DNA from: Xanthobacteraceae bacterium
GTDB lineage: Bacteria > Pseudomonadota > Alphaproteobacteria > Rhizobiales > Xanthobacteraceae
Length of the DNA stretch: 64,000 bases
Assembly (NCBI GenBank): GCA_029239875.1
Contig: JARBUD010000005.1
Coordinates: 62,001 to 126,000 of the forward strand
Reading direction: 5' to 3'
Shown: piece after piece, positions 8,971-47,490 of the stretch
Layout of the letters: every line of letters starts with the position of its first letter
Position numbering within the stretch: the stretch's first letter is position 1
Notes under the pieces: generated by a model
The model's database searches: none
Told to the model about the DNA's origin: nothing
The model's input: the letters and a program-made list of their open reading frames with translations, nothing else
Made by a program: the position numbers and the translations under genes

Positions 8971-9076
8971 ATCCTTCGAGGCTCGCTGGGCGAGCACTTC
9001 AGGATGACGTGGTTCTTCGGTCCCGACAAACCTACGTCATGCTGAGGTGCCGGCCGGAAGGCCGGCCTCGAAGCAC
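8971..9076. repeat. REP family A palindromic repeats, modA-modB gap
   Basis: Two units of the family whose core reads ATCCTTCGAGGC...GCACCTCAGGATGA: one at about 8971-9009 and one, more diverged and in opposite sense, at about 9037-9076. They fill the gap inside the modABC operon. Each unit is an imperfect palindrome and could fold in mRNA, so it may reduce modBC expression relative to modA. Confidence 0.75.
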
Positions 9077-10057: not shown

Positions 10058-10166
10058 CCTCATCCTGAGGTGCGAGCGAAGCGAGCCTCGAAGGATGGTC
10101 AGTGAAGCGCACCCGGACGAGCATCCTTCGAGGCCCGGCGAAACGCCGGGCACCTCAGGATGAGGG
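10058..10166. repeat. REP family A, paired inverted units upstream of modA
   Basis: Two family-A units in opposite orientation (about 10058-10097 and 10121-10166). Each carries the CCTTCGAGGC and CACCTCAGGATGAGGG arms, separated by a short non-repeated spacer. This paired arrangement resembles a BIME. It occupies most of the gap between modA and the 79-aa hypothetical gene. Confidence 0.8.
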
Positions 10167-11074: not shown

Positions 11075-14000
11075 TCAGGATTGCGCGCCGCGCTCCCTCG
11101 CCATGGCGGCGAGCGCGGCGCGCGCACGTCGGCTGTCCATAGCCTCGCCTATGGGATGGGACAGCCGGCGCCGCCAGTTCGGCCGCTCGCGGTCGGTGCC
11201 CGGCAGGTTCACCGCCACGGTCTCGCCCGCGAGGTCGTCCAGCTGCGCCAGCGCCAGCATGGACGGCGTGCGGGCGACGAAGCCATGCACGGCGGCAAGG
11301 AAAGACTCGTCGAGCGGCGCATCGGCCGCCGGCAGTTCTGCAATCAGTCCCGCCTTGAGCAGCGCCTGGCCCAACTCCTCGCGCTCGCGGGCGCGCTCGA
11401 CCAGCGCCTTCTCGAAGCTCGCCTCGTCCTCGAGTTCCAGTTTTCGGCGCTCATCGAGGTCCACGCCCCGCCACCAGCCGGCGAGGGTCGGCAGGTCGTG
11501 CGTCGACACGCAGGCCGCCGCGAGCGCCGGGTAGGCGGACGGCGGCGCGAACTCTTCGCCCTGCCGCTCGAACCACAGCACGCGGTAGGACAGCATGCGC
11601 TCGCCGGCGAGCTGGTCACGCATGCCGAACGGCACGGTGCCGAGATCCTCGCCGACGACGAGGCATTTCGCCCGCATGCTCTCCAGCGCCACCTGTCCGG
11701 CGAGGCTCTCGAAGGGCATGGCGAGATAGGTGCCCTCCGCTCCGCTCGCGCCGTGCGGGATGAGGAAGAGCCGGCGCAACCCCATCACATGGTCGATCCT
11801 GAGCGCGCCGGCGTGGCGCATATTCGCTCGCACCAGACCGGCGAAGCTGCGATAGCCATCGCGCTGCAGGGCGAGCGGGTCGAAGGGCGGCAGGTTCCAG
11901 TTCTGCCCCTCTGGGCCGAGCGGATCGGGCGGCGCGCCGACGCTTACACCCTGCATGATCATCGCCGCCTCGGACCAGGCCTCGGCCCCGTCCGGCGCCG
12001 TGCCCACCGCGAGGTCGCGGTAGAGGCCGAGCGAGAGTCCCGCCTCCCGCGCCTTGCCGGCCGCCGCCGCGAGCTGGCAGTCGGCCACCCACTGCTGCCA
12101 CAGCGCGAAGCGCACCGCCTCGGAGTGCGTACCGGCGAAGTTCTCGACCGCCGCACTGCCGACCTCGCTCAGGCCGCCGGGCCAGTCGCGCCATCCCTTC
12201 CCTGGGTTTTCAGCGGCTATCGCCTGATGGATGGCGAAGCGGCGCAGCGTCTCGCCGCCTTCGGCGACGAAGCGGTCGAAATCCGGATCCGTGCGGAACG
12301 CGGCGAAGGCCGCCTTCAGCGCCACCTCCTTCGCCGCCCAGACGCCGGTGTAGTCCACCGCCTCCTTGGCCGAGAGCGCGGCGAAGGGCGCGGTGTCGGC
12401 CCCGAGCGTCGCGACGTCGATATAGACGGGATCGAGGAAGCGCCGGTCGGAGGGCGAATAGGGGCTCGCCCGCTCGCGGTCGCCGGGGAACAGCGCGTGC
12501 AGCGGGTTGAGCCCGAGCACCGATACGCCCTGCCGCGCCGCCAGCTCGGCGAGTTCACCCAGTGCGGTGAAGTCGCCGATGCCCTGATCGAGCGTGGCCC
12601 GGCGCAACGTGTAGAGATGAATGCCGACACCGGTCAGCCTTCCACCCCCGGCAAGCTCCGGCGGCAAATAGCAGGCCGGCGGAGCGACGGTGAGCCGGCA
12701 CTGCGTGCCGCCGAGATCGAGCACATGCCGCCCGACCGGCAGCTCCGGCAGCTCGATGGTGCGGGTCGTCGCCGGCCGCCCGTCCGGCCGCGTCGCCCGC
12801 TCGCGCCGGCCGTCCTCGGGGCGGATGGCCAGTTCGCGCTCGCCGCCGTCCTCAAGGCGGATGGAAAGGTCGAGCCGTCGCGGCGCCTCGGCCGCAGTAC
12901 CGCTCGAGGTCAGCGTCAGCGGCGCGCCGGCGCACAGCACATGGGCGAAAGGCAGGTCGCGGCCGAAGCGTTGCTCGGACAGCAGCGCGAGGCTGTCGCG
13001 GACCTCGCCGCCGGTCCCTGCCGGCAAGTCGAGCGCGGCGAGCAGCGCGCGCTTGGTGTCATCGCCGACCGGGTGGCGCTCCCCAATGACGTCCCACCAT
13101 TCCTTGTCGATGCCGGCGGCGGCGGAGAGCCGCTCCAGCAGCACCGGATCGGTACCGTTGCGGGCAGCGCCCGTCACCGGCTCCTCGGCCAGGATCAGCA
13201 CGGCGCGGCCGGCCAGCTCGAAAGGCTCGCCGGCGGCAGTGCCCTCCGGATGCGCGGTATCGGCAATGACGCGCCAGGCGAAGCCTTCGCGCGGCGGTGG
13301 CAAGGTGAGCGAATGGCCGGAATCGGAGGCGTTCAGCGCCACCGCCACGCGATCGGCCGGCTCATCCCCGTCCGGCGGCGCGTAGAACAGCGCCACCAGC
13401 GCGCCGCTCGCCGCGTCGTCCCACGCCACCGGCGTGCCGTCCGGCGCGTGCCACTCGACGTCGGGAATGCCGCTGGCATCGAGCGGATGGCCGGTCAGCG
13501 GCGCCTCCAGCCGCAGCGCGCGGTGGGCGAGGCGCAGCTTCACCAGCTTGGCGGTGAAGGCGGCGAGAGACTCGTCGGTCTTCGACCAGTCGAGCCAGGC
13601 GAGCTCGTTGTCCTGCGCATAGGCATTGTTGTTGCCGGCCTGCGAGCGGCCGCACTCGTCGCCCATGGTGAGCATGGGCGTGCCGCGGGCGACGAGCAGC
13701 GTCGCCAGCAGCGCCCGCATGTCGGCGTGCCGTGCCGCTTGAACCGCCGGATCGTCGGTCCAGCCTTCGACGCCGTGGTTCCAGCTGTGGTTGTCGCTGG
13801 TGCCGTCGCGATTGCCCTCGCCATTGGCCTCGTTGTGCTTGCCCTCGAAGGAAACGAGGTCGGCCAGCGTGAAGCCGTCATGGGCGGTGACGAAGTTGAT
13901 GCCACGCGACAGCGGCCGGCGGCGGGCGGCGAAGATGTCGGCCGAGCCGGCGAGCCGCGTGGCGACCTCGCCCACCATGCCCCGCTCGCCGCGCCAGAAG

Positions 14001-15220
14001 CGCCGCGCCGTGTCGCGGAACTTGTCGTTCCACTCGCCCCAGTTCGGCGGGAACTGCCCGACCTGATAGCCGCCCGGGCCGATATCCCACGGCTCGGCGA
14101 TGAGCGCGAGATCGCGCAGCATCGGATCCTGCTGGAGCGCAGCGAGGAAGGGCGCTTCGGGGTCGAAGCCGTCGACCCGCCGCCCGAGCGTCGCCGCGAG
14201 GTCGAAGCGGAAGCCGTCGAGGCCGAGCGCCGCCCAGCGCCGCAGCATGTCCATGCCGAGCCGCAACACCGGCGCGCGCTCCAGCGCCAGCGTGTTGCCG
14301 GTGCCGGCATCGTTGATGAGGCGCGCGGGATCGTCCTTGGCGTGGCGGTAATAGGTCGCGTTGTCGAGGCCGCGCAGGCTCACCGTCGGGCCGAACTCGT
14401 CGCTCTCGCCGCTGTGGTTCAGCACCACGTCGAGCACGACCTTGATGCCGGCGCCGCGCAGCGCCTCGATGGCGAGCGCCACCTCCTCAAAGCCCCCCGG
14501 CGCGAGGCGCGGGTCCGGCGCGCCGAAGACGACGGGGTTGTAGCCCCAGTAATTGGTGAGCCCGAGCGCGGGCAGATGCCGCTCGTCGATCCACGCCATG
14601 GACGGCATCAGCTCGACCGTGGTGACGCCGAGCCTCACCAGATGATCGAGCGCCGGCGGCTGCGCCAGGCCTGCGAAGGTGCCGCGCATCTCCAGCGGAA
14701 CGCCCTCGTGGCGCTTGGTGAAGCCGCGCACATTGAGCTCGTAGAGCACTTCGCCGTCCCAGCGGAAGGGCAGCGCCGGGCGCGGCGCCATGCCGTCCGG
14801 CTGCGGCACGATGGCCTTGGGCACCACATGGGCGCTGTCGGTCTCGTCATGGTCGGCGCCGCGGGCGCGGGCGTCGAACATGGCCGGGTCGAGCCGGAAC
14901 GGCCGGTCGAACCGGCTCGCATAAGGGTCGACCAGCAGCTTGTAGGGATTGAAGCGGTGCCCCCTGTCTGGCGCCCACGGTCCTGCCGCGCGCAGCCCGT
15001 AGCGGGAACCGGGCGGCACGCCGGCGATATGGCCGTGGAAGATGTCGCCGGTGCGCCCCGGCAGGGCGATGCGGGCGACTTCCTGCTCGCCTGCGGCGTC
15101 GAACAGGCAGAACTCGATGCGCTCGGCATTGGCCGAGAACACCGCGACATTCACCCCCGCCGCATCCGCCGTGACGCCGAGCGGCTCGTAATGGCCCGGC
15201 GAAACGCGAAGGTCGCTCAC
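11075..15220 (-). CDS. glgX-malQ: Glycogen debranching enzyme GlgX fused to 4-alpha-glucanotransferase MalQ
   Basis: A single 1,381-aa reading frame. Residues about 1-690 are a GlgX-type isoamylase: CBM48 domain, then a GH13 barrel with [24 protein letters not shown], nucleophile D340 in [13 protein letters not shown] and acid/base E376 in [12 protein letters not shown]. Residues about 700-1381 are a GH77 amylomaltase: GIHLYTLRR...GIGDF, nucleophile D1143 in [13 protein letters not shown]. The first half trims short branches from phosphorylase-limited glycogen and the second recycles the released malto-oligosaccharides. It starts with GTG, overlapping the glgA stop (GTGA, 15217-15220). No frameshift is needed to join the halves. 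Confidence 0.9.
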
Positions 15221-16674
15221 GCGGCGCGCTCCGCCGCGAGCTGGCGGAACAGCGCGTCATACTGCTTGGCGGCGCGTTCCCAGGAGACGTCGGTAGTCAT
15301 GGCGTTGCGCTGCAGCTTCTTCCACAGCGCCTTGTCCTGCCAAAGGCCGGCGACGCGCTTCAAAGCAAGCTGCAGCGCCGGCGCGGTGACGGGAGAGAAC
15401 TGCACGCCGGTGCCGACTCCGGTGGTACGCGCCATCTCGTTGACGTCGATCACCGTGTCGGCGAGGCCGCCCACGCGGGAGACCAGCGGCAGCGCGCCGT
15501 AGCGCAGCGCCGAGAGCTGGGTCAGCCCGCAGGGCTCGAAGCGCGAGGGCACGATGAGGACGTCGGAGCCGGCCTGGATCAGGTGCGCCGCCTTCTCGTC
15601 ATAGCCGAGCTCGACGCCGATGCGGCCGGGATTGGTCTGCGCCGCCCAGGAGAAGCGACCCGCGAGGTCGGCGTCGCCCGCGCCGAGCAGCACCAGTTGC
15701 GCGCCGAGGCCGGTGAGCGTGTGCAGGCTGTCGGCCAGCAGGTCGAGCCCCTTCTGCCAGGAGAGCCGGCTCACCACGCCGAACAGCAGCGTGTCCGGGT
15801 TGGGATCGAGGCCGAAGGACTGCTGCAGGGCGGCCTTGTTGGCCGCGCGGGCCTTCAGCTTCTTCTCGTCGAAGGGTGCAGGGATCAGCTTGTCGGCGGC
15901 CGGGTTCCACGTCGCCTCGTCGAGCCCGTTCAATATGCCCGACAGCACATCGCTGCGCGCATTCAGCAGCCCGTCGAGACCCATACCGCCCTCGGGCAGC
16001 AGGATCTCGCCGGCATAGCCGGGCGAGACGGTGGTGATGCGGTCGGCGAGCTGAAGGCCGGCCTTGAGGTAGCCGACCATGCCGTAATATTCGACACCAT
16101 CGACCGCGAAAGCATGCGGCGGCAGGCCCAGCATGCCGAACATGTGGGCGGGGAACTGGCCCTGGAAGGCGATGTTGTGGATCGTCATCACCGTTCCCGG
16201 CCGCCGCCCGCCGGAATAGTGGAGATAGGCCGGGGCGAGGCCCGCCTGCCAGTCGTGCGCATGCACGATGTCGGGCACGAAACCCGGCAGCAGGCCCAGA
16301 CCGAGGCCGGAGGCCACCGCGCCGAGCGCGGCGAAGCGCTGGGCATTGTCGCCCCAGTCGACGCCGTTCGGGCCGACATAGGGGCCGCCGGGACGGTTGT
16401 AGAGATGGGGGGCGTCGATGACGAAGAGGTCGAGCCCGCCGGCCGTGCCGGCGAGGAGCCGCGCCGGCCCGCCGAAAAGATGGTCGAAACGGTGCACCGT
16501 CTCGCCCTCGCCGAGCGCCGCCAGCACGGCCGGATAGCCCGGCAGCAGCGTGCGGGTCTCGATGCCGTGCGGCGCCAGCGCGCCCGGCAGCGCGCCGGCG
16601 ACATCCGCCAGCCCGCCGGTCTTCACCAGCGGGAAAACCTCGGAAACGACCGAAAGAACCTTCAACGATGACAC
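15217..16674 (-). CDS. glgA: Glycogen synthase (GT5)
   Basis: A 485-aa bacterial glycogen synthase that adds ADP-glucose to glycogen. The N-terminal ADP-glucose motif KTGGLADV (residues 18-25) and the C-terminal GT-B signature, with [17 protein letters not shown], are intact and the length is usual for the family. It starts at GTG (16674), 24 bp downstream of the glgC stop, with AAGGGG upstream. It is part of glgP-B-C-A-X. Confidence 0.95.
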
Positions 16675-29967: not shown

Positions 29968-31269
29968 TCAGGCGTCTTCCTTTTCCAGCAATTCCCGCAC
30001 GGCCTGCGCGAGCCCCGACACGGGGACGACCCGCGCCGGAGCACTGCGCGGCGTGCCTTCGACCACGATCGCGGCCCCTTCGTCCAGCCCCACGATGGTC
30101 AGCGCCGCCGGCGCAGGATGAGCGCAGCCCTTGATGCAGCCGGAAACATGGACGTCGCGGCCCTTGGCCAGCGCGGCGATCCGCATGGCGGTCGCGTGCG
30201 TGTCGAGGCGCGCGGAGGCGCAGGCCGGACGGCCGGCGCAGGCGAAGATACGCCGCCGCGGATCGGCCGGATCGGTGATGGAGCCGAGCCCGGCGGCATT
30301 ATTTTTCAATGAGTTAGACGCGTCCAGCGAGAGACCGACGACCAGCAGCGCGCGCCCCGAGGCGGGCTCGACATGCCGGGCGCCGGCCGCCCGCGCCGCT
30401 TCGGCCAGCGCCTGCAGCGCCTCGGCCTCGACCTGCCCGAAGGCGAGGCCGAGGCCGAGCGCGAGGGTGCCGTCGTTCAGGGCGTGAAGGCCAACCGGCT
30501 CGGCCGGCGGCTTCGATTCGACGGAGGAAACGGGAGCGAGGGCGAATTCCGCGCGCAGCGCCTCGATTCCGTGTTCCATCAAGAGGTTAGCCATCCGTGC
30601 CGCCGGCCCGCGGGCGGCGAGGCGCTCCAGCAGCGCGACCACGATGGCGGGAACCCGGTGGGGCGGGACTTCGCCGGCGGGACGATTCGCCAGCAAGATC
30701 AGAGCGTTGTCTCCCCTTCCCGCCGTCACGCCGATATCGGCCTTCAGCGCCAAAAGATGCAGCTCGCCGCCGCCATCGACGACGACGGACGCTTTCGGCG
30801 CGAGGCGCAGCACCAGCTTGGCGGCGCGGTCGGAAATCTCCCGCGCCAGCGGGCGCGGGTCGAAACGCTCGACCGGATCGAGCCCGGCGAGCGCGCTCGC
30901 CTCGACCGGAAAGCCTTGCGGCACAACGATTCCCAGCGCAGCGACCGCTTCCGGCAGGCGGGTCGCGCCGGCGCTCGTCAAGCCGCGCAATTGCAGCTTG
31001 CCGCGCGCCGTCACCTCGACGATGCCGTTGCCGAGTGCGCGCGCCAGCCTTGCGAGGCCGGAGAGCTGCTCGAAAGTCAACGGCTGCAAGGGTTGCAGCC
31101 GTGCCAGCAGCCCGTCGCCGGTCTGCATCGGCGCGGGCAGCGAGGGGCAGGCGCCGCGCCGCAGGCGGGCGACATCGCTGGTGGCATTTTTGGTGACATT
31201 TCCGTCGCCACCGGTGGCGACGTCATTAGTGGCAGTAGTGGCATCGGTGGCAGGGGTGACAACGCTCAT
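29968..31269 (-). CDS. cobG: Precorrin-3B synthase (oxygen-dependent)
   Basis: A 433-aa sulfite/nitrite-reductase-like protein with ferredoxin-like half-domains. The 4Fe-4S cysteines are in CAGRPACASARLDTH and VHVSGCIKGCAHPAP. It uses O2 to form the gamma-lactone of precorrin-3B, so it marks the pathway as aerobic. The first about 33 residues are a Thr/Ala/Asn-rich tail of GTGGC-like DNA repeats that is not part of the family fold; a later start is possible. The ATG overlaps the cobN stop (31266-31269). Confidence 0.93.
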   Translation of the reverse strand: MSVVTPATDATTATNDVATGGDGNVTKNATSDVARLRRGACPSLPAPMQTGDGLLARLQPLQPLTFEQLSGLARLARALGNGIVEVTARGKLQLRGLTSAGATRLPEAVAALGIVVPQGFPVEASALAGLDPVERFDPRPLAREISDRAAKLVLRLAPKASVVVDGGGELHLLALKADIGVTAGRGDNALILLANRPAGEVPPHRVPAIVVALLERLAARGPAARMANLLMEHGIEALRAEFALAPVSSVESKPPAEPVGLHALNDGTLALGLGLAFGQVEAEALQALAEAARAAGARHVEPASGRALLVVGLSLDASNSLKNNAAGLGSITDPADPRRRIFACAGRPACASARLDTHATAMRIAALAKGRDVHVSGCIKGCAHPAPAALTIVGLDEGAAIVVEGTPRSAPARVVPVSGLAQAVRELLEKEDA

Positions 31270-34200
31270 TCCGCCGCCTCCCCCGCCAATGCCGCCAGCC
31301 CGGCGCCGACATCGTTGCGGCGCGGATGCCAGAGGCCCCGCTCCCGCGCCAGCTCGAAGCGCGCCGCGACGAAGCGTGCTGCCTCCGGCGAGACCTGGCT
31401 GAGGAAATCGCGCACGGCCTCGTCACCGACATAGGCGGCGTGCAGCGCGTCGATCAGGGGACCGGGTACGGCACGGGTCGCTTCAGTGAAGCCGATCAGC
31501 CGGTCGACGGTCTCGGCGATCTCCGCCGCGCCGCGCGGGCCGTGGCGCATGAGGCCGGCGATGTAGCGGGGATTCGTCCGCCCGCGGACGATGCGGGCGA
31601 TCGCCTCCGCCAGAGGACGCGCCTTCGGCCGGGCGGGATCGGACGTGTCGAGCACCACGAGGTCGGGCGCGCGGCCCAGCTTCTCGGCCGCCGCCGCGAA
31701 GCCGCCGATGAAGGCGAGGTCGGCATCGCCTTCCAGCAGGTCGCGGCCGGGATCGTCGCCGCCATGGACGAGAAGGTCCGCCGCCGCGACGCGCGCCTCG
31801 AAAGTGTCGCCCGCCTCCTGCGCCTCGCCCTCCGTACCGCCATAGGCATGCGAGGCGCTCGCGAGATAGGCGGCGCCCAGCGCCTCGCGCTCGATCTCGC
31901 CGGCATCGAGCCCCGCACCATAGGCGCCCGGCGCCGTTCCGAAGATGCGCGGCGCGCCCGCGCCGGCCGCCTTCAGCGGGTTCTCGTCGTGCGTTTCCTC
32001 GCGCCGGGCCACCGCGCGCAGGGCGGCGTCGAGAAGCGCGATCTGCGCCGGGAACAGGTCGCGGAACAGGCCGGATATGCGGAAGGTGACGTCGACGCGC
32101 GGGCGGCCGAGCAGCGCGGTCGGCAGCACCTCGATGCCGGTCACGCGGCCCGTGGCCGGATCCCAGGTCGGCCGCGCGCCGATCAGCGCCAGGCCCTGGG
32201 CGATCTCCTCGCCGCCGGTGCGCAGCGTGGCGCTGCCCCACAGATCCAGCACCAGCGCGCGCGGCCAGTCGCCATGCGTCTGCGCATAGGCCCGCAGCAC
32301 CTCGTCGGCGGCGAGGCGGCCGAGGTCCATGGCGGTCGGCGTCGGCAAGGCGCGGGGATCGGCGGTGAAGAGGTTGCGGCCGGTCGGCATCACGTCGCTG
32401 CGCCCGCGCCCCGGCGCACCAGCCGGCCCGGCGGGGACGCGACGGCCGTCCAGCGCGGCGAGCAGCCCGTCTCGCTCGGCATCGCCGCACGGCCCACGAC
32501 CATAGACGTGAAAGCCGTCCTTCAGCCGCATCTCCTTGATGTCGCACAGGAAAGCGTCGATCTGCTTCAGCGCCTCGTCCGGCGCCACGTCCACGGCAAG
32601 GCCGGCGTCGCGGGCAAGGCCGGTGCGCTCGGCCTCCTCGACGATGAGGCGGGCGAGGCGCTCGCGCCGTCGGCGGTCGAGCCCGTCGGCCTGCGCATAT
32701 TCGTCGACGAGACGCTCGAGCTCGGCCGCCTCGCCGGCGAGCCCGGCCTCGACGGTCGGCGGCGGCAGGTGGCCGAGCGTCACCGCGGCGATGCGCCGCT
32801 TGGCCTGCGCCGCCTCGCCGGGATTGGAAACGATGAAGGGATAGGCGACCGGGAGCGCGCCCAGCACCAGCTCGGGGAAGCAGCCTTGCGTGAGCGCGAC
32901 ATGCTTGCCCGGCAGCCATTCCAGCGTGCCATGCGCGCCCATATGCACGAGCGCATCGGAGGAGCGCTGGAGCCACAGGCCGAAGGCGAGCAGCGCATGG
33001 CGCGGGGGGAGCGCCGGGTCGTGATATTGCGCGCGGCGCTCGGTTCGCGAGCCGCGGTCCGGCGCTATGGCGACGGTCACATGGCCGAAGCGCGCCGCGC
33101 GGAAGCGGAAGGCGCCGCCGACAAGGTCCGGATCGTCCTCCGGCGCGCCCCAGGCGGCGTCGATGGCGACGACGGCGGCGGGTGGAAGGGTTGCGAGCCA
33201 CGTCCGGTATTCGGCCAATTCAAGAGCAACCTCATCCTGAGGTGCCCGGCGCCAGCCGGGCCTCGAAGGATGCTCGCCTCGAACGCCCGGACGAGCATCC
33301 TTCGAGGCTCGCTCCGCTCGCACCTCAGGATGAGGGTGTTCTTTGGTCAGTCGATGGAGCAGCCCCCGCTCATCCTCCGGCACGTCCTCCACCCGGTAGC
33401 CGGCCGCCTTCGTGTCCGAGAGCAGCGCCCGCACGCTCGCCGGCACGTCGAGGCCGACGGCCCAGCCGGTGCGGCCGGGGGCGCCGGCGTATTCCGGGAT
33501 CAGCACCGTCACCCGGCGCTTTTCGCGCGGCGTGGCCTGCAAGCGGACCAGCGCGGCGACGCGGTCGGCGACCTCGGCCACCCGGTCCGGCTCCGGGCGG
33601 TTCGCCAGCGCGGTGAAACCCGGCACCGTGGGCGCCTCCTCCGCGGCCTTGAACGAGAGCGCGCCGGCGAGCACGCGCCCGTCGAGCTCGGGCAGCACGA
33701 CGTGCATGGCGAGGTCGGCGCTCGTCAGCCCGCGCACGCCCTCCGCCCACGCCTCGCGCTTGGTCGTGGCGACGATGGCCTGCAGCACCGGCACGCCGGG
33801 CGCGTCGAGCACGGTTTCCTCGCCCGGATCGGCGGCGGCGAAGGCGGTGAGCGTGACGATGATTGCGGGCTCCATCGCCGCCAGCGCCTGCTTCAGGAAG
33901 GCGGCAGAGGCCGGCTCGCGCAGCGAAGCGACGAAGATGGGTTTTGGCGACAGCCCGCGCGCGGCCAGCGCGTCGCACAGCGCGTCGACCGGCGCCGTGT
34001 CGCCGGCCAGCCACATGGAGCGGTAGAAGATGACGGGGATGGCGGGGGCGGTGCCTTCACCGGATACGCCCTCATCCTGAGGTGCGAGCGCAGCGAGCCT
34101 CGAAGGATGGTCAGCGAGAAGGTCCCCTGCTTCAGCATCCTTCGAGGCTCGGCCCTTGGCCGAGCACCTCAGGATGAGGTCGTTGGGAATTGGGGAGGAA

Positions 34201-34757
34201 GGTCCGGTCGGGGGAACCCACTCATATCCCCCCGCCAGCGGCACGGGCTGCGGTGACGCGGCGTCCATATCGCGTCCGGCATGTCCCGCCAGACGGCGCA
34301 GCAGCGCGCGCATATTGGCCGGGCCGCCGGCGCGGAAATAGGCGAGCAGTTCCGCTAGCTCCAAAGCCGGCAGGGTGGAAGCTTCCGCAAGGCGCGGGTC
34401 GTCGCGGTCCTCGCCCGGCAGCACCGCCAGCGCGAAGCCCCTCGCCCGCGCCTCGGCGCTCAGCCGGTCGACGCCGTAGCGCCACCAGTCGAGCCCGCCG
34501 AGCAGCCGCACCACCACGATGCGGGCATGCAGCGCCACGCTGTCGATCCACAGGTCGACCGACATGGGGTGCCGCAGGTCGCGCAGGTTGGCGAGGCGCA
34601 GGCTGGGAAGCTCGGGCTCGGCCTGCTGCGCCCGCGCGAGTGCGCCGAGATCGCTGTCGGTGAAGGACAGCACCACCACCTCGCCCGGCGTCTGGCCGAG
34701 ATCGACCGGCTCGACGAGGTCGTCGAGGCTGGTCGAGGTGGTGGTGAGGATGTGCAT
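31266..34757 (-). CDS. cobN: Cobaltochelatase subunit CobN, with two in-frame palindromic repeat insertions
   Basis: An 1,163-aa large subunit of the ATP-dependent aerobic cobaltochelatase that inserts cobalt into hydrogenobyrinic acid a,c-diamide with CobS and CobT (not in this window). Family motifs are HMGAHGTLEWLPGKHVALT and YPFIVSNPGEAAQAKRRI. Residues about 193-229 and about 474-509 are encoded by family-A palindromic repeats that read through in frame. They contain peptides such as LILRC and ASKDA and have no counterpart in the fold. No stop or frameshift results, so the gene looks functional. Confidence 0.93.
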   Translation of the reverse strand: MHILTTTSTSLDDLVEPVDLGQTPGEVVVLSFTDSDLGALARAQQAEPELPSLRLANLRDLRHPMSVDLWIDSVALHARIVVVRLLGGLDWWRYGVDRLSAEARARGFALAVLPGEDRDDPRLAEASTLPALELAELLAYFRAGGPANMRALLRRLAGHAGRDMDAASPQPVPLAGGYEWVPPTGPSSPIPNDLILRCSAKGRASKDAEAGDLLADHPSRLAALAPQDEGVSGEGTAPAIPVIFYRSMWLAGDTAPVDALCDALAARGLSPKPIFVASLREPASAAFLKQALAAMEPAIIVTLTAFAAADPGEETVLDAPGVPVLQAIVATTKREAWAEGVRGLTSADLAMHVVLPELDGRVLAGALSFKAAEEAPTVPGFTALANRPEPDRVAEVADRVAALVRLQATPREKRRVTVLIPEYAGAPGRTGWAVGLDVPASVRALLSDTKAAGYRVEDVPEDERGLLHRLTKEHPHPEVRAERASKDARPGVRGEHPSRPGWRRAPQDEVALELAEYRTWLATLPPAAVVAIDAAWGAPEDDPDLVGGAFRFRAARFGHVTVAIAPDRGSRTERRAQYHDPALPPRHALLAFGLWLQRSSDALVHMGAHGTLEWLPGKHVALTQGCFPELVLGALPVAYPFIVSNPGEAAQAKRRIAAVTLGHLPPPTVEAGLAGEAAELERLVDEYAQADGLDRRRRERLARLIVEEAERTGLARDAGLAVDVAPDEALKQIDAFLCDIKEMRLKDGFHVYGRGPCGDAERDGLLAALDGRRVPAGPAGAPGRGRSDVMPTGRNLFTADPRALPTPTAMDLGRLAADEVLRAYAQTHGDWPRALVLDLWGSATLRTGGEEIAQGLALIGARPTWDPATGRVTGIEVLPTALLGRPRVDVTFRISGLFRDLFPAQIALLDAALRAVARREETHDENPLKAAGAGAPRIFGTAPGAYGAGLDAGEIEREALGAAYLASASHAYGGTEGEAQEAGDTFEARVAAADLLVHGGDDPGRDLLEGDADLAFIGGFAAAAEKLGRAPDLVVLDTSDPARPKARPLAEAIARIVRGRTNPRYIAGLMRHGPRGAAEIAETVDRLIGFTEATRAVPGPLIDALHAAYVGDEAVRDFLSQVSPEAARFVAARFELARERGLWHPRRNDVGAGLAALAGEAAE
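33231..33336. repeat. REP family A pair inside cobN (second insertion)
   Basis: Two oppositely oriented family-A units (CATCCTGAGGTGCCCGG...CTCGAAGGATG and CATCCTTCGAGGCTCG...CACCTCAGGATGAGG) lie within cobN codons about 474-509. This is the same paired form found in intergenic regions, but here it stays in the reading frame. Confidence 0.85.
34070..34179. repeat. REP family A pair inside cobN (first insertion)
   Basis: A second paired copy of the family-A repeat lies in cobN codons about 193-229: one unit at about 34070-34110, the inverted one at about 34135-34179. It too keeps the frame open and lies in the N-terminal half of the protein. Confidence 0.85.
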
Positions 34758-34780
34758 GGGTGCGACGATCTCCTGAAAAC

Positions 34781-34877
34781 GTCATCCCGGCCGAAGCGAA
34801 GCGGAGAGCCGGGATCGCGTGCCGATCTCTTTCTGACAGCGATCCCGGATACGGCCTTGCGGCCGTTCCGGGATGAC
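34781..34877. repeat. REP family B palindromic repeat between cobW and cobN
   Basis: The family-B element reads GTCATCCCGGCC...GAGAGCCGGGATCGC, a short spacer, then GCGATCCCGGA...TCCGGGATGAC. Its ends are inverted repeats of each other. It fills the 128-bp cobW-cobN gap, inside an operon. Confidence 0.8.
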
Positions 34878-34885
34878 GAAATCTC

Positions 34886-47224: not shown

Positions 47225-47344
47225 GAATTCACTCTTAATTGGTGTACTAAATGGAATTGTCCGCAAGATATCTGAAAATTCGGCGCTGTGAACCCCTGCG
47301 ATATGGCGGAAGGCTTGGGAATTCCCATCCCTGCACTAGGTACA

Positions 47345-47490
47345 CCCTCATCCTGAGGTGCCCGGCGTAAGCCGGGCCTCGAAGGATGGTCGTCCGGGCA
47401 GGCTCAGGCGAGGATCCTTCGAGGCTCGCGGAGCCCTGTCCTCGGGCTTGCCGAAGGCAAGACCCGTGGGCTCGCACCTCAGGATGAGGG
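47345..47490. repeat. REP family A array upstream of cysA
   Basis: One family-A unit (about 47345-47389) and an inverted longer unit (about 47413-47490). The longer unit has an extended central stem region containing GAGCCCTGTCCTCGGGCTTGCC. They fill most of the 332-bp divergent gap between cysA and the acetyltransferase gene. I saw no clear promoter in the remainder. Confidence 0.8.

Follow-up and report, generated by a model that had tools for sequence, protein, structure and literature searches.

Palindromic repeats that lie within genes and are read in frame are already known from two described systems. The Rickettsia palindromic elements (RPEs) occur both between genes and, in frame, inside them, and nearly half of those first described lie in genes, according to the sections of PMC10969869 drawn on here. 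The CGTC REPs (Di Nocera 2013), in the corresponding sections of PMC3733652, are found mostly in alphaproteobacteria, include intragenic copies and have no dedicated transposase; some of the genes that carry them are the only REP-modified ones in their species, and the REPs found at roughly one site of recB differ between Xanthomonas campestris and X. oryzae. The RepRanger paper (PMC12306157) contains no occurrence of 'intragenic', 'in-frame' or 'Ancylobacter', and no paper on palindromes in cobN was among the matches listed for open-licence PMC articles, a scope that carries no claim about absence from print. Judged against these sources, in-frame intragenic REPs are already known, whereas a genus-wide landing pad at two sites of one gene, used by several families and with visible turnover, is new. 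The gene is cobN of a bacterium from the genus of Ancylobacter (genome of 5.07 Mb), located in a window of 64,000 nucleotides (the whole stretch of DNA under analysis), and the repeat is here termed family A.

Family A behaves like the RPEs in occurring both in intergenic gaps and, in frame, inside a gene, and the Rickettsia analogy drawn in an earlier sequence-only reading of the window is apt in that sense, the likeness being claimed for behaviour only. In PMC10969869 a large share of RPEs lies in genes and the genes are unrelated metabolic ones, whereas only 2 of 173 family-A elements lie in a coding segment and two sites of one gene have been refilled by several families across the genus. 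With the CGTC REPs, as characterized in the sections of PMC3733652 at hand, family A shares C(G/C)TC ends followed by AT, paired hairpins, intragenic copies, a location mostly between convergent or tandem genes (where an own-genome element has a gene no more than 60 nt away on each side, the pair is convergent in 19 cases, tandem in 23 and divergent in 0) and the lack of a dedicated transposase. The tag given there (CGTC or TGTC/CCTC, then AT) is borne by the 248 family-A ends, whose termini are C (.98), C (.77), T (.99), C (1.0), A (.98) and T (1.0); both ends read C(C/G)TCATCC, and the flank beyond is weakly conserved. The 8-9 bp stem and 4-5 nt loop described for the CGTC REPs differ from the longer half-elements and variable inner arm of family A, in which a typical half-element is predicted to fold into an 11-bp stem, a 2-nt bulge and then the inner arm (matched half-sites 32-44 nt, arms variable). 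Because family A falls outside the stem and loop sizes stated in that text, it is called CGTC-like and is not filed in any of the four families. Head-to-head dimers predominate among the CGTC REPs according to PMC3733652, which in the sections cited does not define the orientation so named; in family A, 124 of 173 elements are '+-' pairs whose tags point outward. A second repeat, family B, fits the CGTC REP description there (CGTC, 9-bp stem, 5-nt loop, CCA tail) with the sequence CGTC-ATGGCCGGG-CTTGG-CCCGGCCAT-CCA, although its predicted fold runs one base further (10 bp, 3-nt loop). The GTAG REP/RAYT system combines a GTAG tag with a Y1 transposase, and family A has neither: its tag is C(C/G)TC, and the Y1 transposase profile of RAYT type (PF01797) has 0 matches in the own genome, while 5 of 14 control genomes match. 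Mobilisation of family A by a RAYT was dropped for want of such a match. The closest parallel in kind is Xanthomonas recB, where the same recurrence is seen at about one place of one gene with different REPs; recB, as presented in that source, involves two species and one site, whereas cobN involves 29 species, two sites, at least four families, relics and apparent replacement scars.

Family A in the genome and in cobN

The features of the window that bear on this comparison are as follows.

8971-9065, no strand: family-A copy, intergenic, halves in opposite order
10060-10163, no strand: family-A copy, intergenic
31266-34757, minus strand: cobN, cobaltochelatase large subunit, 1163 aa, frame uninterrupted through both inserts
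33230-33335, minus strand: site 2, family-A palindromic pair, 106 nt, residues 475-509, in frame
34070-34179, minus strand: site 1, family-A palindromic pair, 110 nt, residues 194-229, in frame
34780-34878, no strand: cobW-cobN intergenic palindrome, family D type
47343-47446, no strand: family-A copy, intergenic, one half partly decayed

The CobN model NCBIfam PRK12321 covers residues 1-1158 of the cobN product as a profile match. Within CobN, site 1 separates the N-terminal stretch from the IPVIFYRSM stretch, and site 2 precedes the LELAEYR segment. The sequence-only reading had placed family-A repeats inside cobN, translated without a stop, and all 1163 codons are indeed open; its interval for site 1 holds exactly, while that for site 2 was one base off (33231-33336, corrected to 33230-33335). 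The hairpins predicted for the two elements have energies of -74 and -83 kcal/mol, and their folding z values against dinucleotide shuffles are -8.9 and -10.1. Genome-wide, exact family-A half-sites number 256, compared with 0 for a reversed control pattern; taken with the folding z values, the in-gene repeats are far beyond chance. The same repeat stands in intergenic gaps, including the copies at about 9.0, 10.1 and 47.4 kb, which are real and lie outside coding segments by a codon-usage test, and the claim that the inserts derive from an intergenic family is thereby borne out.

Listing of 239 of the 256 half-sites gave 161 elements, the 17 left out (16 of one pattern and one other) making this census incomplete, and a looser scan of ~731 kb around the listed half-sites gave 173. 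Elements were assigned to coding segments by an open-frame codon-usage test with a sensitivity of 0.90 at LLR>5, measured on 830 genic points. Its classifier was retrained (GC3 0.92) after a first version trained on long ORFs (GC3 0.74) was discarded, and the test replaced a flank-only classification that had put zero elements in the open in-frame class, those of cobN included. By this test, the genome scan for in-gene copies proposed in the sequence-only reading places 171 of the 173 elements outside coding segments and two inside, both in cobN. The chance of a second in-gene copy falling in cobN is of the order of 0.001 (~3.5 kb of ~4.2 Mb coding, the latter by arithmetic from a coding fraction of 0.825). 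One further family-A pair, at L071:5451-5553, lies in an open frame of 114 aa with weak coding-like scores (4.3 and 14.3) and is a possible third in-gene copy, left out of the in-gene count by the coding-segment test. Families B, C and D have no clear in-gene inserts among 66 clusters (795 kb, window included, with overlap). A B-type cluster at L102:6705 is ambiguous, its open frame being coding-like on both flanks yet the best frame on neither.

These counts bear directly on the suggestion that family A evolved to be readable in protein. The in-gene copies do translate without stops, as that suggestion would have it, but almost the whole family (171 of 173) is outside coding segments, and open frames are rarer than in dinucleotide shuffles (a mean of 0.316 per pair versus 0.524), one of the phases being open in no more than 3 of 248. 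Family A is not adapted to being read and is less readable than shuffled DNA, and we regard an origin by selection for readability as very improbable.

Occupants of the two sites across the genus

A search returned 30 genomes of the genus, all with CobN, of which 29 have complete frames and were analysed; the thirtieth (G005) was left out because of an N run in site 2 and the lack of a single open frame. Alignment of the 29 proteins, a check proposed in the sequence-only reading, reveals seven length-variable regions (columns filled in <80% of the rows over at least five columns), and only two exceed 20 residues. Both coincide with the insert points and reach 114 and 97 residues. Both inserts of the window are common to the closest relative (G011, 93% identity). 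Family A is present at site 2 in several species of the genus, with another family or nothing in the rest. By pattern calls (one false call in 580 core segments), site 1 is occupied in 20 of the 29 species (A in 2, B' in 3, C in 13, B'+C in 2) and site 2 in 17 (A in 5, B in 2, C in 5, D in 3, A+B in 2, namely G025 and G010); at least one called element is present at either site in 21 species, and eight have none at either. The pattern calls drop both sites of G006 and site 2 of G023, which by eye look like decayed remnants. On a CobN gene tree built without the two sites, which is not a species tree, the fewest occupant changes are 12 at site 1 and 15 at site 2, or 11 and 14 with composites merged; site 2 of G010, which gave both A and B calls, was counted as B. 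Earlier labels assigned by eye had given 12 and 17 changes and were replaced by the pattern calls. It is thus shown that four or more distinct palindromic families occupy the two points and that the occupants often change along the CobN tree. The earlier description of two independent insertions in one gene was correct as to the presence of the inserts and understated the situation, since different families have refilled both sites genus-wide.

The sites also show relics, shortened remnants and elements in tandem or composite arrangement, with the reading frame preserved in all 29 complete CobNs. These cases were read by eye from the alignments. In G011 a C element has left its 5' end immediately before the A element, an arrangement found at 0 of 346 flanks (60 nt, up to two mismatches) of A elements in the own genome. 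G026 carries a D element with a B-like 3' tail behind it, whereas the related G024 and G016 carry B there; G025 carries B and A in tandem where its sister G022 has A alone; and the composite C+B' occupies site 1 in G019 and G021. Three seemingly empty sites (site 1 of G027, site 2 of G013 and G028) retain the outer bases of a C element and are read as apparent deletion scars. The relics, the B+A tandem and the apparent scars indicate serial gain, nesting and loss in frame. At the cobN sites, divergence of the empty sites is too great for a target-site duplication to be demonstrated. In G023 and G018 the C-type insert of site 1 contains a further perfect palindrome, ACCAACATCGGATGCATCCGATGTTGGT, common to both species.

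A different route to the same pattern would be the swapping of occupants as REP copies recombine or templates switch between them, one palindrome being converted into another with no fresh insertion. The C+B' composites in G019 and G021 and the adjoining remnants of different families speak for such exchange, as does the fast turnover of intergenic REP clusters, 7 of 11 of which in L102 coincide with alignment breaks against G011. However, short ends aside, the four families A to D have little sequence in common (by eye), and the B+A tandem of G025 is simpler as an insertion, so that exchange is rather unlikely as the explanation. Next to cobN itself, the cobW-cobN gap of G011 holds a family-A-like element (by eye) instead of the D-type palindrome of the window.

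It could also be supposed that cobN is a pseudogene or that the inserts are assembly artefacts. The N run at site 2 of G005 and its lack of a single open frame are what this would lead one to expect, but it is hardly credible given the 29 complete cobN frames in the genus, a CobN core dN/dS of 0.15 between the own genome and G011, and the same inserts in G011, a one-contig genome.

Structure and constraint of the inserts

An AlphaFold2 model of CobN (31-row alignment, mean pLDDT 73.4, pTM 0.63) has pLDDT below 50 at residues 184-234 and 474-507, which correspond to the two inserts, between better ordered flanks; six other segments of 7-35 residues also have low pLDDT. Mapped on this model, as the sequence-only reading had proposed, the inserts are low-confidence and probably flexible stretches. 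The best solved structure by fold is CobN of M. tuberculosis (7c6o). Matches by phmmer to the CobN structure 9uk9 are interrupted between query residues 156 and 235, spanning site 1, whereas site 2 lies within a single matched stretch, in a weakly aligned part; site 2 therefore counts as a loop and not as a proven border between domains.

Between the own genome and G011, the inserts have pN.070 and pS.035 over 71 codons, and no amino-acid constraint is visible in them for this pair. Over six whole-site-region comparisons from five species pairs, insert dN/dS is 0.21, 0.28, 0.62, 0.67, 1.21 and 1.47. At the nucleotide level, 7 of 178 paired stem bases have changed between the own genome and G011, compared with 129 of 686 four-fold sites (p about 1e-7), and unpaired insert bases (6 of 38) match the four-fold sites. 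Ten pooled comparisons (eight species pairs, two of which enter the four-fold count twice) give 77 of 859 for stems, 112 of 662 for other insert bases and 1395 of 6645 for four-fold sites, and the changes at stem pairs comprise 48 broken, 20 one-sided but still paired and 4 compensatory. Structural constraint, or else copying from one repeat to another, may account for the slow stems; covariation lends no support.

An alternative is that the hairpin has a use of its own: at each linker of the cobN mRNA a strong palindrome would slow ribosomes or set mRNA stability, and any family would be kept. This would agree with the strength of the predicted hairpins, with stems slower than four-fold sites next to unpaired bases that are not, and with the refilling of the same points by different families. 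It is nevertheless unlikely: 8 of 29 species lack a called element at either site, apparent deletion scars are present, broken and one-sided pair changes far outnumber the four compensatory ones, and copying between the many genomic copies could also slow the stems. A more elaborate form, in which selection holds both linkers open and the mRNA hairpin helps co-translational folding or dosage of this very large protein, the palindromes being an interchangeable, family-independent device, is equally doubtful.

Most probably, the cobN inserts are copies of a high-copy REP-like repeat in two tolerant linkers, which together act as a neutral landing pad filtered by selection on CobN. A repeat that is normally intergenic would enter CobN linkers where extra, probably disordered residues are harmless; an early insertion may then make each linker a small neutral island inside the gene, in or beside which later elements could land, while deletions would trim or eliminate them and any frame-breaking or stop-introducing change would be purged by selection on CobN. 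Two observations sit poorly with this neutral landing pad. Stems slower than four-fold sites are not predicted by plain neutrality, and an insert dN/dS that is not uniformly near 1 (0.21 to 1.47) counts against it. Tolerance alone, moreover, does not explain the preference for cobN, because other multi-domain proteins must have linkers too.

Where the entry of selfish repeats into proteins had been documented case by case, the locus offers a natural series in free-living bacteria, one gene with two points followed over some thirty species and several families, in which gains, nested gains and losses are visible and which permits the rates of insertion, deletion and peptide decay to be measured inside a working enzyme. 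For CobN, which belongs to the CobN/ChlH chelatase class, it further identifies positions where insertions are naturally tolerated.

CobN of other genera and other large proteins

The sequence-only reading would have been contradicted by CobNs of distant genera carrying the same residues. A CobN search matched 81 of 149 genomes, the same genus included, and none of the 20 CobNs read from other genera, partly chosen for split matches, carries them. Palindromic inserts are present at site 1 in three genomes of other genera (G042, G109, G076), and a 35-residue insert at site 2 in another (G050). Site 1 of G076 holds an array of related palindromes of ~240 residues, still in frame.

Four other large proteins served as controls across the 30 genomes, inserts being sought as split or stretched matches. 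Two of them are located as follows.

11078-15250: GlgX-MalQ fusion of the own genome, without insert
L131:2689-4944 and L260-L279: GlyS loci

In the GlgX-MalQ fusion, as we name it (with the Pfam domains CBM_48, alpha-amylase and Glyco_hydro_77), 2 of 30 genomes carry palindromic inserts, in frame in the same linker, of D type in G022 and C type in its sister G025; the match in G024 is split without an insert. For glycogen phosphorylase, all 30 genomes give a single unbroken match that starts at residue 26 or before, and the PheT match is continuous in 29 of 30. cobN is therefore exceptional but not unique, because the GlgX-MalQ linker shows the same on a small scale. In GlyS (glycyl-tRNA synthetase beta subunit), the REP pattern was found in 0 of the 20 loci read from the 30 genomes. 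The inserts in PheT and GlyS were set aside, not being palindromic by pattern or by eye. The PheT insert of G009 (L209) is in frame and 114 nt long, and by eye it is A+T-richer and non-palindromic. Inserts of other kinds occur in GlyS of 16 of 20 species, at one fixed point before DLLxFFADRLKV; the ten insert-bearing GlyS scanned have no Pfam match above the cut-off besides the synthetase itself, and the inserts range by eye from ~20 to 150 aa, are mostly G+C-poorer and often appear unrelated between species.
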